DNA from: Phycisphaerales bacterium
GTDB taxonomy: Bacteria > Planctomycetota > Phycisphaerae > Phycisphaerales > UBA1924
DNA length: 43,477 nucleotides
Assembly (NCBI GenBank): GCA_013360675.1
Contig: JABWBB010000020.1
Coordinates: forward strand, 1-43,477
Direction: 5' to 3'
The notes beneath the pieces were generated by a model. It had not been told where the DNA came from. It did not search any database and saw only the letters and a list, made by a program, of their open reading frames with translations. A program made the position numbers and the translations under genes. Positions within the stretch are counted from its first letter, which is position 1. Every line of letters begins with the position of its first letter. Shown here in pieces: positions 2,539 through 39,025 of the stretch.

Positions 2539-3731
2539 GGCGCGGCCTCTTCCTGCATCTCGAGCCCGCCGCGGAGTTCCCCCGCCGCGAATCGATCGAT
2601 CGCGTCGTAAACCTGCGCGGGGCTGCGGGCGTTGCGGACCGCCTCTTTGAAGGGCTTGATGCTCTCGAGCTTGCCGTTGTGGAGTTCGCGCTGCAGCGAG
2701 CGCGAGAACCACGACACCCGCCGGTTGATCTGGAAGAGCGCGTAGCGATCATCGCGGTAGTCGCGCATCAGGTCAAAGAAGCGTCGCACACTCGCCAGGA
2801 TCTCCGCCTCGCTGGGCTCGCCGGGCGTCAACTCCACCGGCGCGGCACCGCGCCCCAGCCCAGCCCGGTGCAGGTGCGCCCAGCAATCACGAAAGAGCCA
2901 CGGCTTCGACAGCCCACCCCGCCCGATCATCACGCCGTCGCACCCGGTCTCGCGGATCATCCGCTCGCAGTCCTCGGGCGTGCGCACGTCGCCATTGCCG
3001 ATGATCGGGATCCGCCCGTTCACCGCCTCGACCACACGGGCTATTCCCTCGAGGCGCACGGTCCCCGCGAACTTGTCCTCGGTCGTTCGGCCGTGCACCG
3101 TCACCGCGACCACGCCCGCATCCGCCAGCGCCAGCGCCAGCCCCGGCGAGCAGGCCTGCCCCGCCTCGTAATCGCTCGTGTGCCAGCACAGACGAACCTT
3201 GCACGTCAGCGGCACGGGCATGGGCCCATCGCCCGCCAGCGTTGCATTCCCCAGGCGCCTGGCCCATTCATCACGCGGCAGGGGGCACGCCTCGAGCGCC
3301 CGAGACACACGCTCGACAATCGCCGCCGCCCGCAACAAATCCGTCAGCAGTTTCGAGCCGCCGTCCTTCTTCGTCACCTTGTCGACCGGGCAGCCCATGT
3401 TGATGTCGACGACCGTCGCGCCGTGCTCGACGGCCCATCTCGCCCCCTCGGCCATCAGGTCGGGGTCGCTCCCGTACAACTGCATCCCCACCGGCTTGTC
3501 AAAGTCGTTGGTCCGCGCCAAGTCCAGGCTCGTCGCCGTCCCTCGCAGCAAACCCTCGGGCGAGAGCAGGTCCGTGCAGGCCAGGCCCACCCCGCCCCAC
3601 TCGCGGCAGATGGTCCGAAAGGCCAGGTCGCAGTACCCGGCGATCGGGGCCAACAGCAGGTTCGTCGCCAGACGAACCGGTCCGAGTTGAAGCGCCACGC
3701 CGTTCATGCTCCCAACTGTATGAATTGCCAT
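2535..3731 (-). CDS. dus: tRNA-dihydrouridine synthase (Dus family)
   Basis: A flavoenzyme that reduces specific uridines in tRNA to dihydrouridine, acting in the cytoplasm. The 398-residue form has the N-terminal LLLAPIAGYCD strand of the FMN-binding TIM barrel, the catalytic cysteine in DINMGCPVDK (Cys114) followed by KKDGGSKLL, and the FMN-phosphate segments IIGNGDV and GCDGVMIGRG. About 25 extra residues sit between the catalytic loop and the TCKVRLCW strand, including CPLPRDEWARRLGNATL. The start is uncertain: ATG 3731 (used here) or ATG 3707, which would give the short N-terminus typical of DusB-like proteins. The stop overlaps the GTG start of the downstream zinc-ribbon gene, so the two are probably co-translated. 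Position specificity on tRNA cannot be read from sequence. Confidence 0.88.
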   Translation of the reverse strand: MAIHTVGSMNGVALQLGPVRLATNLLLAPIAGYCDLAFRTICREWGGVGLACTDLLSPEGLLRGTATSLDLARTNDFDKPVGMQLYGSDPDLMAEGARWAVEHGATVVDINMGCPVDKVTKKDGGSKLLTDLLRAAAIVERVSRALEACPLPRDEWARRLGNATLAGDGPMPVPLTCKVRLCWHTSDYEAGQACSPGLALALADAGVVAVTVHGRTTEDKFAGTVRLEGIARVVEAVNGRIPIIGNGDVRTPEDCERMIRETGCDGVMIGRGGLSKPWLFRDCWAHLHRAGLGRGAAPVELTPGEPSEAEILASVRRFFDLMRDYRDDRYALFQINRRVSWFSRSLQRELHNGKLESIKPFKEAVRNARSPAQVYDAIDRFAAGELRGGLEMQEEAAP

Positions 3732-31690: not shown

Positions 31691-31723
31691 AAAAAAAAGC
31701 CCCGGAGCGAAATGCTCCGGGGC
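31691..31723 (-). terminator. Rho-independent terminator after the first PTPG-tail gene
   Basis: On the minus strand a 10-bp perfect stem (GCCCCGGAGC / GCTCCGGGGC, bases 31699-31708 and 31714-31723) with a 5-nt loop is followed by eight T (31691-31698). It lies 28 bp past the stop of the gene at 31752. Confidence 0.92.
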
Positions 31724-31751
31724 CTTGTGATTCACGAAATCGAAGGAGGGA

Positions 31752-32462
31752 TTAGCGACGGCGACGGCCGGCCACGATCCCGCCCAAGCCCAGCAGCGCC
31801 AGCGCGCCGGGGGTGGGGATGATCTGGCCCGTCACGCCCGTGGCGCGATCCGCAAAGCCCGTCTGGAAGAAGTTCTGCGCACCGAAGACGAGCTGCACAA
31901 GGGCGCCCGAGTAGGGAGGCCCACCCGGAAGACCCATGTTCCACGCGCCGGCGGCGGTGCCGTCGAAGGTGCCGTCGCCCAAACCGTTGTCGTTCAGGAA
32001 GACGTTGCTCATGGACCCATTGAAGTTGAGGAAGAGGCCCTGGCTGTTGGGAGTGGCGGTCCAGAAGCCATTGAGGTCAGCGGTGATGGTGTCGCCGTCG
32101 GCGTCGGTGACGACGACGCTGCCCACGCCCAGGCCAAACTCGTTGCCGGGGGTGGCGTTGATGACGTTCACCGAGACGTTGACGACCATGTTGGCCGTGC
32201 CCTGCGTGACGAACCCGTTCTGGAACGAGGCGTCACCCGTGGGCGAGACCAGTCGAGACGTGGTGCCCCAGCTGCGAAGGCCGCCGGGACCCTGATCCAC
32301 CGCAACGGCGGAGAAGGAGCCGACGCCCGGGGACGCCTGGGTGTACGTGCCCGCGAGGTCATCGTACGAGAACGTCGCGATGACCGTGGCGCTCGCCGTC
32401 GAGGCGATAGCCCCGCCCGCAAGGGCGACGATCAGAGCAACACTGCGAATCGACATGGACAT
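31752..32462 (-). CDS. Secreted protein with PEP-CTERM-like (PTPG) sorting tail
   Basis: A 236-residue exported protein: signal peptide to about residue 25 (VALIVALAGGAIASTASA), a beta-rich body with FSYDDLAGTYT, ITADLNGFWTATPN and a conserved GALVQLVFGAQNFFQTGFADRA stretch, and a C-terminal tail of P-T-P-G, ~12 hydrophobic residues and RRRR. This is the PEP-CTERM arrangement with PTPG in place of PEP, a variant seen in Phycisphaerae, so it is likely processed by an exosortase-type system; no exosortase is in the window. A paralog lies at 33.5-34.2 kb. RBS GGAGGGA precedes ATG 32462. Confidence 0.85.
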   Translation of the reverse strand: MSMSIRSVALIVALAGGAIASTASATVIATFSYDDLAGTYTQASPGVGSFSAVAVDQGPGGLRSWGTTSRLVSPTGDASFQNGFVTQGTANMVVNVSVNVINATPGNEFGLGVGSVVVTDADGDTITADLNGFWTATPNSQGLFLNFNGSMSNVFLNDNGLGDGTFDGTAAGAWNMGLPGGPPYSGALVQLVFGAQNFFQTGFADRATGVTGQIIPTPGALALLGLGGIVAGRRRR

Positions 32463-33524: not shown

Positions 33525-34190
33525 TTAGCGGCGGCGACGCAGGCCGACCAGGCCGGCGACGCCGATGAGGGCGATCGAGCCGGGGGTGGGAACGATCTGA
33601 GCCGTGATGCCCGTGGCGCGGTTGGCGAAGGGCGTCTGGAAGAAGTTGGCTCCGCCGAAGACGAGCTGCACGAGAGCGCCCGAGAAGACGGGGCCGCCGG
33701 GGAGGTTCATATCCCACGCACCGCCAGCGGTGCCGTCGAACGTGCTGTTGACAACGGAAACGAGCTGCACGTTACTGAGTGCACCGTTGAAGAAGATGAA
33801 GCCGGGGCCGGGGTAGAACCAAGTGCCGCTGATCGTGCCGGTGACGAAGTCGCCATCACGGTCGGTCGCGGTGAAGGTGCCCGAACCCGACGCCATCTGC
33901 CCGTTGATCGGGACGACGCTCAGGGACAGGTTGAAGCTCGCGGGATCGAGGCCGCCCTCGAAGCCGGGTTCAAACGTGGCGGACGAAACGCCAGGGCCGA
34001 CGAGACGCGACGTGTTCCCCGAGGAACGGAGGAACGCGTTGTTGACGGCGCTCGCCGTGAACATGCCCGCGTTGTACCCGCCCGCGAGATCGTCGTACGT
34101 CAGCGTGGCGAGCACGTCGGCGTTGGCCGACGATGCCGCGATACCGGCGATCGAGATCAGACCGATGGCAAACTTCTTCGAAACGTTCAT
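33525..34190 (-). CDS. Secreted protein with PEP-CTERM-like (PTPG) tail, paralog of the gene at 31.8 kb
   Basis: A 221-residue exported protein with signal peptide (FAIGLISIAGIAASSANA), a beta-rich body and the same marks as its paralog: TYDDLAGGYN near the N-terminus, FDGTAGGAWDMNLPGGPVFSG, GALVQLVFGGANFFQTPFANRATG, and the tail PTPGSIALIGVAGLVG-Arg-rich. The two are clearly duplicates that have diverged. They flank the flavin reductase gene. The ATG at 34190 has GGGAGGAG upstream, and a strong terminator follows the stop. The function of the body is unknown; the tail indicates envelope sorting. Confidence 0.85.
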   Translation of the reverse strand: MNVSKKFAIGLISIAGIAASSANADVLATLTYDDLAGGYNAGMFTASAVNNAFLRSSGNTSRLVGPGVSSATFEPGFEGGLDPASFNLSLSVVPINGQMASGSGTFTATDRDGDFVTGTISGTWFYPGPGFIFFNGALSNVQLVSVVNSTFDGTAGGAWDMNLPGGPVFSGALVQLVFGGANFFQTPFANRATGITAQIVPTPGSIALIGVAGLVGLRRRR

Positions 34191-34486
34191 TGACTCACTC
34201 CTCCCGCTCTCTTCCAACCGGCGAAACACAGCCGGCCAGTGTCGTTGTCTTACAACTACACGGGACTCTCCAACCCCGTGCATGGTCATTGTGGCACGCC
34301 TTGCCGAACCTGTCAACGCAGAATCCGCGCTTGGTCACGCAATTCCTGACGAAATCTGACTAGTCGCGTCCAAGAACACCTAATCCGGGGGATTCACGTC
34401 GGCAAAGCTCCCGTGCGACTGAACGTATCCCTAATTCATTTCAATGGTTATGCACCATTGGTCATCGGTTCGACAACGAACCGGCT
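34191..34486. other. Gap upstream of the second PTPG-tail gene, probable promoter region
   Basis: A 296-bp AT-richer stretch that must hold the promoter of the minus-strand exported-protein gene. A perfect 7-bp hairpin CGGTTCG-ACAA-CGAACCG is at 34466-34483, next to the terminator-like hairpin. No other feature was recognised. Confidence 0.4.
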
Positions 34487-34524
34487 GAAAACAAAGAAGC
34501 CCCCGGGCGGTGGGACCCGGGGGC
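34487..34524 (-). terminator. Terminator-like hairpin downstream of nrdJ on the minus strand
   Basis: On the minus strand a 9-bp stem (GCCCCCGGG / CCCGGGGGC, bases 34499-34507 and 34516-34524) with an 8-nt loop is followed by TTCTTTGTTTTC, a T-rich but broken run. It would end transcripts from nrdJ or from the structured block next to it. Confidence 0.6.
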
Positions 34525-34603
34525 TCAGGGAGGTGCGGGGGTCGCGGCATCAGGGCCAAAGCCCAAATCCAACGCCCCCGCGGTGGGTGGCTCTAAGTAG
34601 TCT

Positions 34604-34898
34604 GGAGACTGCGGAGGTCGCCGTCCCGCGGCCGGATGTGCCATGGGTCGTGTGCCGACTCAGGCTCCTCCTTGGCGGTGACCCTCATGCCCCCTGTTAG
34701 GGGGTTATCGGGCCACGGGTCCTCCCATCGAGCGTCGTGGCGTGAGCCGCGACGTGGTTCGCCGAACTGGTCTTGAGCGGGCCAAGCGGTGGGTCGGCGG
34801 GCGATCCTCGCCGCCGCCCCAGCACGCATCCATTCGTGGCTGGCTCTTTGCTGTCCCGGGTCAGGCCCGGCCCAGGTTCGGCGACCTCCGCAATCTCC
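34604..34898. ncRNA. Candidate structured RNA, ~295 nt, family not recognised
   Basis: A non-coding block closed by a long-range stem: 34604-34623 pairs with 34879-34898 (5 bp, one C/A position, then 14 perfect bp). Inside are a 9-bp stem with a GUGA tetraloop (34733-34741 / 34746-34754, plus-strand reading), a C5-TGTTA-G5 hairpin (34690-34704), a GGCGG...CCGCC arm (34796-34818) and a CCGGG/CCCGG hairpin near 34856-34870. Strand is ambiguous: the closing stem's odd pair is U-G on the minus strand but C-A on the plus, whereas the GUGA stem contains U-G on the plus strand and C-A on the minus. A minus-strand terminator lies at 34487-34524. It does not match RNase P, tmRNA, SRP or 6S motifs that I know. 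Confidence 0.5.
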
Positions 34899-34958
34899 TC
34901 GTGTTGAGTGGTGAACAGCGCGTAACGAAACAACGGTGGTCGTGATGCGTGGGGCGGC

Positions 34959-38390
<3,432 letters not shown>

Positions 38391-38404
38391 AAATGCGCTT
38401 CCCT

Positions 38405-38429
38405 CAAAACAAACCCCGCGAGCGCGGGG
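38405..38429 (-). terminator. Short rho-independent terminator between dcd and nrdJ
   Basis: On the minus strand a 6-bp CCCCGC/GCGGGG stem (38414-38419 and 38424-38429) with a 4-nt loop is followed by TTTGTTTTG. It is 17 bp after the dcd stop and just before the nrdJ start, so it may be partial or attenuating. Confidence 0.6.
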
Positions 38430-38446
38430 CGTCCGTGCGTGCAGAG

Positions 38447-39025
38447 TTAGTCCACCTTCGGCAGCGTCAGTCCGCTCTGATCCTGGTACTTCCCCGCCTT
38501 GTCCGCGTATGACTTCGTGCAGACCTCGTCGGCCTTGAGGAAGACGAGTTGGGCGATGCCCTCGCCGGCGTAGACGCGGGCGGGCAGGGGCGTGGTGTTG
38601 GAGATTTCGAGGGTGACCTTGCCGCGCCACTCGGGCTCGAGGGGCGTGACGTTCACGATGAGCCCGCAGCGGGCGTAGGTGCTCTTGCCCACGCAGATGG
38701 CCAGGACGTTGCGCGGGATCTCGATGTACTCGACGGTCTCGCACAGGGCGAAGGAGTTGGGCGGGATGATGACGAAGCGCTGGCCCTCGGGGCGCGTGCC
38801 GACATCGACCTCGACCATCATGTCGTCGGAGAAGGCCTTGGGGTCGACGACGGCGATGGAGCCCGAGCGCGGGGTGGGCGTGAAGATCTTGAAGCGGCCG
38901 CCGACGCGGACGTCGTAGCCGTAGCTGGAGACGCCGTAGGAAATGCGCCCCGGGCGCTTGGTGGCGGTTTCGAAGGGCTCGATTTTGATGAGCCGCTGGA
39001 TTTGATTGTCGGAGAGGACGCCCAC
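38447..39025 (-). CDS. dcd: dCTP deaminase
   Basis: Converts dCTP to dUTP (or directly to dUMP in bifunctional members), feeding thymidylate synthesis. The 192-residue protein has [100 protein letters not shown], split here for length: the trimer-fold core and catalytic Glu in TLEISN are present. The start is GTG at 39025 with GAAGGG upstream. nrdJ follows on the same strand 57 bp later. Confidence 0.94.

Follow-up and report, generated by a model that had tools for sequence, protein, structure and literature searches.

The window analysed here is the whole of a 43,477-nt stretch of a Phycisphaerales contig (JABWBB010000020.1, positions 1 to 43,477), which belongs to a genome of 2.92 Mb. On its minus strand it carries a gene for a B12-dependent ribonucleotide reductase, which we take to be nrdJ from an earlier note on this DNA and from its zinc-ribbon C-terminus, and the region behind this gene holds a structured feature, here termed the nrdJ-tail element (Table 1). 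The element exceeds the coordinates given in the earlier note, in that it begins at the nrdJ stop (34958) and extends through the terminator tail to 34487, and along the minus strand it comprises the closing stem P1, hairpins A and B, a GCCANGGAG motif and a 3' domain with conserved CCACC motifs. Two related genes for PTPG-tail proteins are also found on the minus strand of the window (31752-32462 and 33525-34316), and at a contig end in another genome (L135) the same type of neighbour lies behind the element.

Table 1. Features of the nrdJ-tail element and its host gene (positions are those of the window).
Feature	Position	Strand	Basis
nrdJ (B12-dependent ribonucleotide reductase); host transcript or upstream neighbour	34959..38744	-	ORF list; C-terminus matched in 159 of 163 family genomes
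Whole nrdJ-tail structured element, nrdJ stop to terminator tail end	34487..34958	-	Fold z -6.6; homologous regions downstream of nrdJ
P1 closing stem, 5' arm	34879..34898	-	Pairing kept, sequence differs in close relatives
A-B core (model R1)	34786..34851	-	58.2 bits for the window, itself a training sequence
Hairpin A loop, AAUGGAUG	34834-34827	-	Within A-B core
Hairpin B loop, GAGGAUC	34809-34803	-	Within A-B core
Motif C, GCCAAGGAGG; relatives GCCANGGAG or similar; second ANGGA site	34667..34676	-	Relatives compared by eye
P1 closing stem, 3' arm	34604..34623	-	Pairing with 34879..34898
3' domain (model R2): single-stranded CCACC, P2 arm, linker CACCUCCC, terminator	34492..34593	-	53.4 bits, E 1.6e-9; covariation
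CCACCCACC, single-stranded motif before P2	34582..34590	-	Sequence
P2 hairpin, GCGGGGG...CCCCCGC	34535..34581	-	Sequence; fold
CCUCC linker	34529..34533	-	Sequence
Intrinsic terminator, loop CCCACC at 34514-34509	34487..34526	-	Sole terminator found in 34300-35200

The 20-position closing stem that the earlier note had described is present, with 19 Watson-Crick pairs and one G-U pair, and in the window copy it stands out from 60 shuffles of its flanks with a z of 5.5. The fold energy of 34598-34904 corresponds to a z of -6.6 for the minus and of -5.2 for the plus strand, and none of 100 shuffles was as stable on either strand. Two other parts of that description, the GCGGGGG...CCCCCGC arm and a terminator-like hairpin, were found again on the minus strand, at about 34581-34535 and at 34526-34497 with a tail to 34487, respectively. 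A 9-bp stem was also recovered, but its description as carrying a GNRA-type loop does not hold on the favoured minus strand, where the loop reads UCAC and GUGA belongs to the plus strand only. The coding strand had been left open; the terminator, both covariance models, the strand bias of the ANGGA motif (see below) and the position behind nrdJ now assign it to the minus strand, that is the strand of nrdJ. No sigma70-like promoter was found in 34300-35200, which includes the stretch between nrdJ and the element, so that their co-transcription is likely, and minus-strand transcription of the element is predicted. Across genera the sequences of P1 differ, and its pairing beats shuffled flanks at P<=0.05 in 13 of 28 loci, as judged by a crude segment scheme in which three further loci were skipped as too short; one sequence from g3 and the two from g29 do not pass. 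For most close relatives, as well as for g60 and g94, P1 is therefore clear, but not for every relative.

Relatives of the element were collected through its host gene. A DNA similarity search of 101 genomes gave almost nothing other than the 3' end of nrdJ or short terminator-like stretches, and the C-terminus of NrdJ was therefore used to locate the equivalent loci among the 163 genomes of the family. One hundred loci were fetched, and both the end of nrdJ and a terminator were placed in 97 of them, 91 being unique (L007 and L019 gave no nrdJ end and L081 no terminator, and six duplicates were kept off the main motif counts). A filter for a gap of more than 240 nt and a hairpin with CACC was passed by 56 of the 91, which together provide 23.0 kb up to the terminator. 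The best 80 named relatives of nrdJ are mostly MAGs labelled Phycisphaerales, Phycisphaerae or Planctomycetota. Sequence turnover in the element is fast, with pairing retained in close relatives.

Compensatory changes, which bear directly on the proposal in the earlier note of a structured RNA, were found in both the A-B core and the 3' domain, using MAFFT alignments made without structure and segments picked by eye. In the close genera both loops of the A-B core hold GGA, as ANGGAUG or similar in hairpin A and as GAGGAYY in hairpin B. Both sides have changed in six of its 15 pairs (shuffle mean 2.4; slid controls 1-2), and the count of pair types is not above that of shuffles (8 vs 8.6). When the 163 genomes were searched with model R1 at E<=0.01, 12 matches were obtained, one in each of 12 genomes and every one of them downstream of nrdJ; three of these genomes lie outside the training set, and 151 of the 163 have no match under these stricter filters. 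In the 3' domain of the close genera, the P2 stem encloses hairpins (one with the loop UCCACCC) and is followed by a linker, CU-rich in some relatives, and then by a terminator with CCACC in its loop. Here both sides have changed in 11 of 27 pairs (shuffle mean 5.0; slid controls 1-3), and 96.3% of the cells of the alignment pair, as against at most 56% in slid versions.

Model R2, trained without the window, recovers the window copy at the score given in Table 1. Its search of the 163 genomes at E<=0.01 returned 58 rows in 52 genomes, leaving 111 without a match under the stricter filters, and 44 of the rows were placed just downstream of nrdJ by coordinate comparison. Among the best 22 rows, 21 lie behind nrdJ, and the remaining one is a contig end that repeats the sequence of an nrdJ copy. 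The 14 rows placed off nrdJ comprise G000:C31, G101:C92, a second contig-end copy in G038, a row in G132 (for which the coordinates compared include no nrdJ place) and ten weak rows with E between 0.0019 and 0.0099. Neither of the first two was accepted as an additional copy: by sequence, the row in the window's own genome (G000:C31) amounts to no more than a terminator and an unrelated hairpin, and the G101:C92 row, from a contig end, is identical in sequence to the nrdJ copy. A weak second match was also seen inside the window, at 31692-31752 (E 0.0095). In 65 of the best 80 named nrdJ loci, from genomes that in several cases overlap the set of 163, R2 found 29 matches at E<=0.1, and every one of them lies behind nrdJ on the strand of that gene.

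No match at gathering score to Rfam 15, the scan that the earlier note had proposed, was found in the whole window, and none came near gathering in 34200-35000 at E up to 10. Weak local hairpin or terminator likeness to ftsZ-DE and SorX was seen on the minus strand, at 19.8 and 17.8 bits, far below the gathering scores. The models for CsrB, CsrC and the Rsm RNAs were unmatched in 34200-35000 at E up to 10, and the element is for this reason not filed under those families. Identity with 6S RNA was rejected, since RF00013 was unmatched in the window's own genome (the control was matched in five of 14 genomes) and Rfam similarity is lacking. Protein coding was likewise rejected as an explanation of the region: tblastn with the four ORFs over it gave no more than short, weak matches in relatives (among the best 15; best E 0.001), the leading ones derived from a plus-strand ORF over the DNA of the terminator and P2. 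No description of the element was found in PMC, a library with few subscription papers, among articles on small RNAs of Planctomycetes and Phycisphaerae, on CsrB, on nrdJ RNA motifs and on CsrA with FliW or with CsrB-like RNAs. With no Rfam match, with compensatory changes in homologues and with no convincing conserved protein frame, the suggestion that this is a real, undescribed structured RNA is supported, and we are confident that the nrdJ-tail is a genuine and conserved element of the minus strand.

The 3' domain is a second conserved module, in which CCACC is exposed at as many as three places, one of them the terminator loop. CCACC was found inside the chosen terminator hairpin at 62 of the 91 unique nrdJ loci and at 30 of 48 further loci, with an automatic choice of terminator that is wrong in some loci; in the 62 loci the distance from the nrdJ stop to the terminator ranges from 78 to 752 nt (median 379). 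By comparison, among the 28 strong terminators found over 357 kb of the window's own genome, CCACC falls in the loop region of only two, the nrdJ-tail terminator being one of them. In the 56 filtered loci CCCACC occurs 100 times, against 23.6 expected, and the complementary GGTGG is depleted (19 vs 34.8), a depletion that is not repeated in the second set of loci (20 vs 15.6). When GGTGG was sought as a target of CCACC at 463 start-site windows of the own genome, it was not in excess (29 vs 24.6). The loop sequences, both CCACC and GAGGA, are better conserved than their stems. The CCACC of the nrdJ terminator hairpin (34509-34514 in the window) recurs even in relatives without ANGGA sites. This module may provide a seed for base-pairing or a site for a protein.

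Up to the terminator, the 56 loci hold an excess of the motif ANGGA, with 233 occurrences on the minus strand where dinucleotide shuffles predict 112.5 (z 13.9); this and the other motif tests treat sites as independent, which those of related sequences are not. The excess is specific to the A and to its place, as substituting C, G or T yields 0.82, 0.91 and 0.76 times expected, a shift of the A by one or two places outward gives 1.18 and 0.98 times, and the opposite strand gives 0.96 times. At the N position, A, C or U are found at 2.2-2.7 times expected and G at 0.97; AAGGA alone could be a ribosome-binding-like sequence, which ACGGA and AUGGA are not. A rise is seen for ANGAA as well (1.60 times expected, z 5.6), and part of the ANGGA excess may therefore belong to a wider purine pattern. 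For GGA on its own, the main set shows no enrichment relative to dinucleotide shuffles (641 vs 627). No excess of ANGGA was seen beyond the terminator (68 vs 85 in 52 loci) or ahead of 22 further terminators in the own genome (6 vs 14 expected), and a slight one was seen at the coding end of nrdJ (78 vs 61.6, z 2.1, 40 loci). Because the main set had been filtered by gap length and CACC, unselected tests of the first 250 nt after nrdJ were added, and these gave 260 vs 126 in the 97 loci (91 unique) and 124 vs 61.5 in a second, non-overlapping set of 48 loci. The excess was also found with one sequence per genus (101 vs 47.6, 26 sequences) and in eight regions that represent the order's other families (28 vs 11.6). 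A compact version is seen in one locus of another family (L027, in G072), with five ANGGA in about 165 nt after nrdJ. In predicted folds, GGA is unpaired more often within ANGGA (0.60 vs 0.35) and lies in a hairpin loop at 79 of 233 ANGGA sites, compared with 43 of 387. By an exact-hexaloop test ANGGAN (16 of 233) is no higher than GNGGAN (13 of 168), and is above shuffles (mean 6.5).

The window copy itself contains 11 GGA and two ANGGA (2.0 expected), the latter at 34833 and 34673 and both at positions common to relatives. As this is a chance number, the case for CsrA rests on the family, in which relatives have about four ANGGA on average; multiple exposed ANGGA or GGA sites, as in RNAs of the CsrB/Rsm type, are a property of the set of relatives and not of the window copy by itself. 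Among 18 inspected relatives with a short gap (<240 nt), 16 have none or one ANGGA and the other two have five and three, and the ANGGA module is therefore dispensable. Nine of these 16 keep the CCACC terminator (counted by eye), and the GGA and CCACC parts are thus separable.

CsrA is encoded in 162 of the 163 family genomes and FliW in 159, and this near-universality makes tests of co-occurrence uninformative. Family genomes usually have two CsrA genes, as does the window's own (G000:C32 and G000:C16), in which the C32 paralogue sits just behind fliW. The one own-genome CsrA whose sequence was inspected has L4 and R44, which we take to be RNA-binding positions. In the leaders of csrA (last 100 nt, 20 genomes) ANGGA occurs 37 times against 7.7 expected, and still 13 times against 4.7 once the ribosome-binding zone is left out. 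The own csrA leader (G000:C32, about 3390-3455) reads GGGC-ACGGAU-GCCC followed by CCAAGGAG, which are the forms of the motif seen in hairpin A and in motif C of the element. ANGGA hairpins together with ANGGAG at the ribosome-binding site are seen in csrA leaders of the family (L137, L234-L253). These leader motifs suggest that CsrA may regulate its own synthesis in the family. In two published studies, the ANGGAN loop is given as the recognition element of CsrA/RsmE (PMC7652899) and ANGGA loops are recognised by the CsrA of Campylobacter jejuni (PMC4894983). In view of the motif statistics, the exposure of the sites and the motif shared with the csrA leaders, ANGGA is taken to be the clade's CsrA signature, and the nrdJ-tail to be a likely CsrA-binding RNA.

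The closest functional parallels are the CsrB/CsrC and RsmX/Y/Z RNAs of Gammaproteobacteria, with which the element shares repeated and preferentially exposed GGA, an intrinsic terminator and the presence of csrA in the genome. It differs from them in that its confident matches lie behind nrdJ, in its long closing stem and CCACC 3' domain, in its smaller number of sites and in its occurrence in a family in which FliW is nearly always encoded. As a point against the CsrA reading, csrB of Escherichia coli has 22 GGA and is richer in CAGGA (10 vs 1.3 expected) than in ANGGA (7 vs 4.5). The flaA leader of C. jejuni (PMC4894983) is similarly part of an mRNA, has ANGGA loops, titrates CsrA and belongs to a host with FliW, whilst it differs in being the 5' leader of a flagellin mRNA with two sites, the nrdJ-tail being a 3' tail with about four on average. 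A CsrB-like mode of action is likely for the element, without membership in the CsrB-type families.

We consider it probable, from the motif evidence, that the element binds CsrA, and on balance we favour the view that it acts as a CsrA-titrating RNA, or sponge, either as the nrdJ 3' UTR or as an RNA processed from it. The minus strand of 34958-34487 would form the 3' end of the nrdJ mRNA, or a small RNA released from that mRNA by cleavage, and the exposed ANGGA sites of this tail would bind and titrate CsrA, such that the level of free CsrA would be tied to transcription of nrdJ. Given the distribution of FliW, the RNA would work next to a protein antagonist. We infer transcription, CsrA binding, and titration rather than control of nrdJ alone. 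The last of these points is the one on which the reading most similar to ours departs from it, namely that CsrA binds the tail as cis-control of nrdJ, the mRNA being stabilised or exposed to decay via its 3' UTR with no titration. The CsrA motif evidence applies equally to that reading, and the placement behind nrdJ of every R1 match and of 21 among the 22 top R2 rows, together with the probable co-transcription, agrees with it; it is nevertheless rather unlikely, as known CsrA control is usually exerted at 5' regions (PMC4894983), and several exposed sites per RNA would fit titration better than a single cis site.

The CCACC results raise another alternative, in which base-pairing is the main function of a small RNA, with CCACC and CCUCC as seeds for target mRNAs and the GGA loops as secondary or chaperone sites. 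The excess of CCCACC and depletion of GGTGG in the 56 loci, the frequency of CCACC in nrdJ terminator hairpins compared with other strong terminators of the own genome, and the CCACC terminators kept in ANGGA-poor short-gap relatives would all suit such an RNA, but the depletion is absent from the second set, the start-site windows hold no excess of GGTGG and no target was found, and we regard this function as unlikely. It is very unlikely that the region is only a structured 3' UTR that protects the nrdJ mRNA and terminates transcription, with GGA as a by-product of loop composition: the strong terminator, the long closing stem, the quick turnover of sequence with pairing kept in close relatives and the enrichment of ANGAA are what such a tail would have, but the excess of ANGGA depends on A at a single position, is confined to one strand and has a counterpart in csrA leaders, and the CCACC and GAGGA loops are more conserved than their stems. 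Chance folding, which comes easily to GC-rich intergenic DNA such as this, can be set aside almost entirely, being at odds with the fold z, the match of a model blind to the window and the syntenic homologues, and already contradicted by the covariation counts.

In the literature, RNA antagonists of CsrA are described as a trait of the Gammaproteobacteria (PMC4894983), with FliW taking their place in other bacteria; FliW and BarA-UvrY are strongly anti-correlated, with Planctomycetes among the groups that may use FliW, and the existence of inhibitory sRNAs in species with FliW is left as a question (PMC4682653). The titration reading, if true, would provide a CsrA-antagonist RNA from the Planctomycetota with a fold unrelated to that of the CsrB or Rsm RNAs, and the element is a concrete, conserved candidate for an inhibitory RNA in FliW-bearing genomes. 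As a tentative picture, to which we give somewhat less credence than to titration itself, an order-wide and undescribed RNA fused to the end of nrdJ would act as a CsrA sponge beside FliW, the production of DNA precursors would set the level of free CsrA, and the CCACC domain would add base-pairing or protein binding. The ANGGA motif, common to the element and to the csrA leaders, opens the Csr regulon of this little-studied phylum to searches, and the element would link that regulon with nucleotide metabolism.
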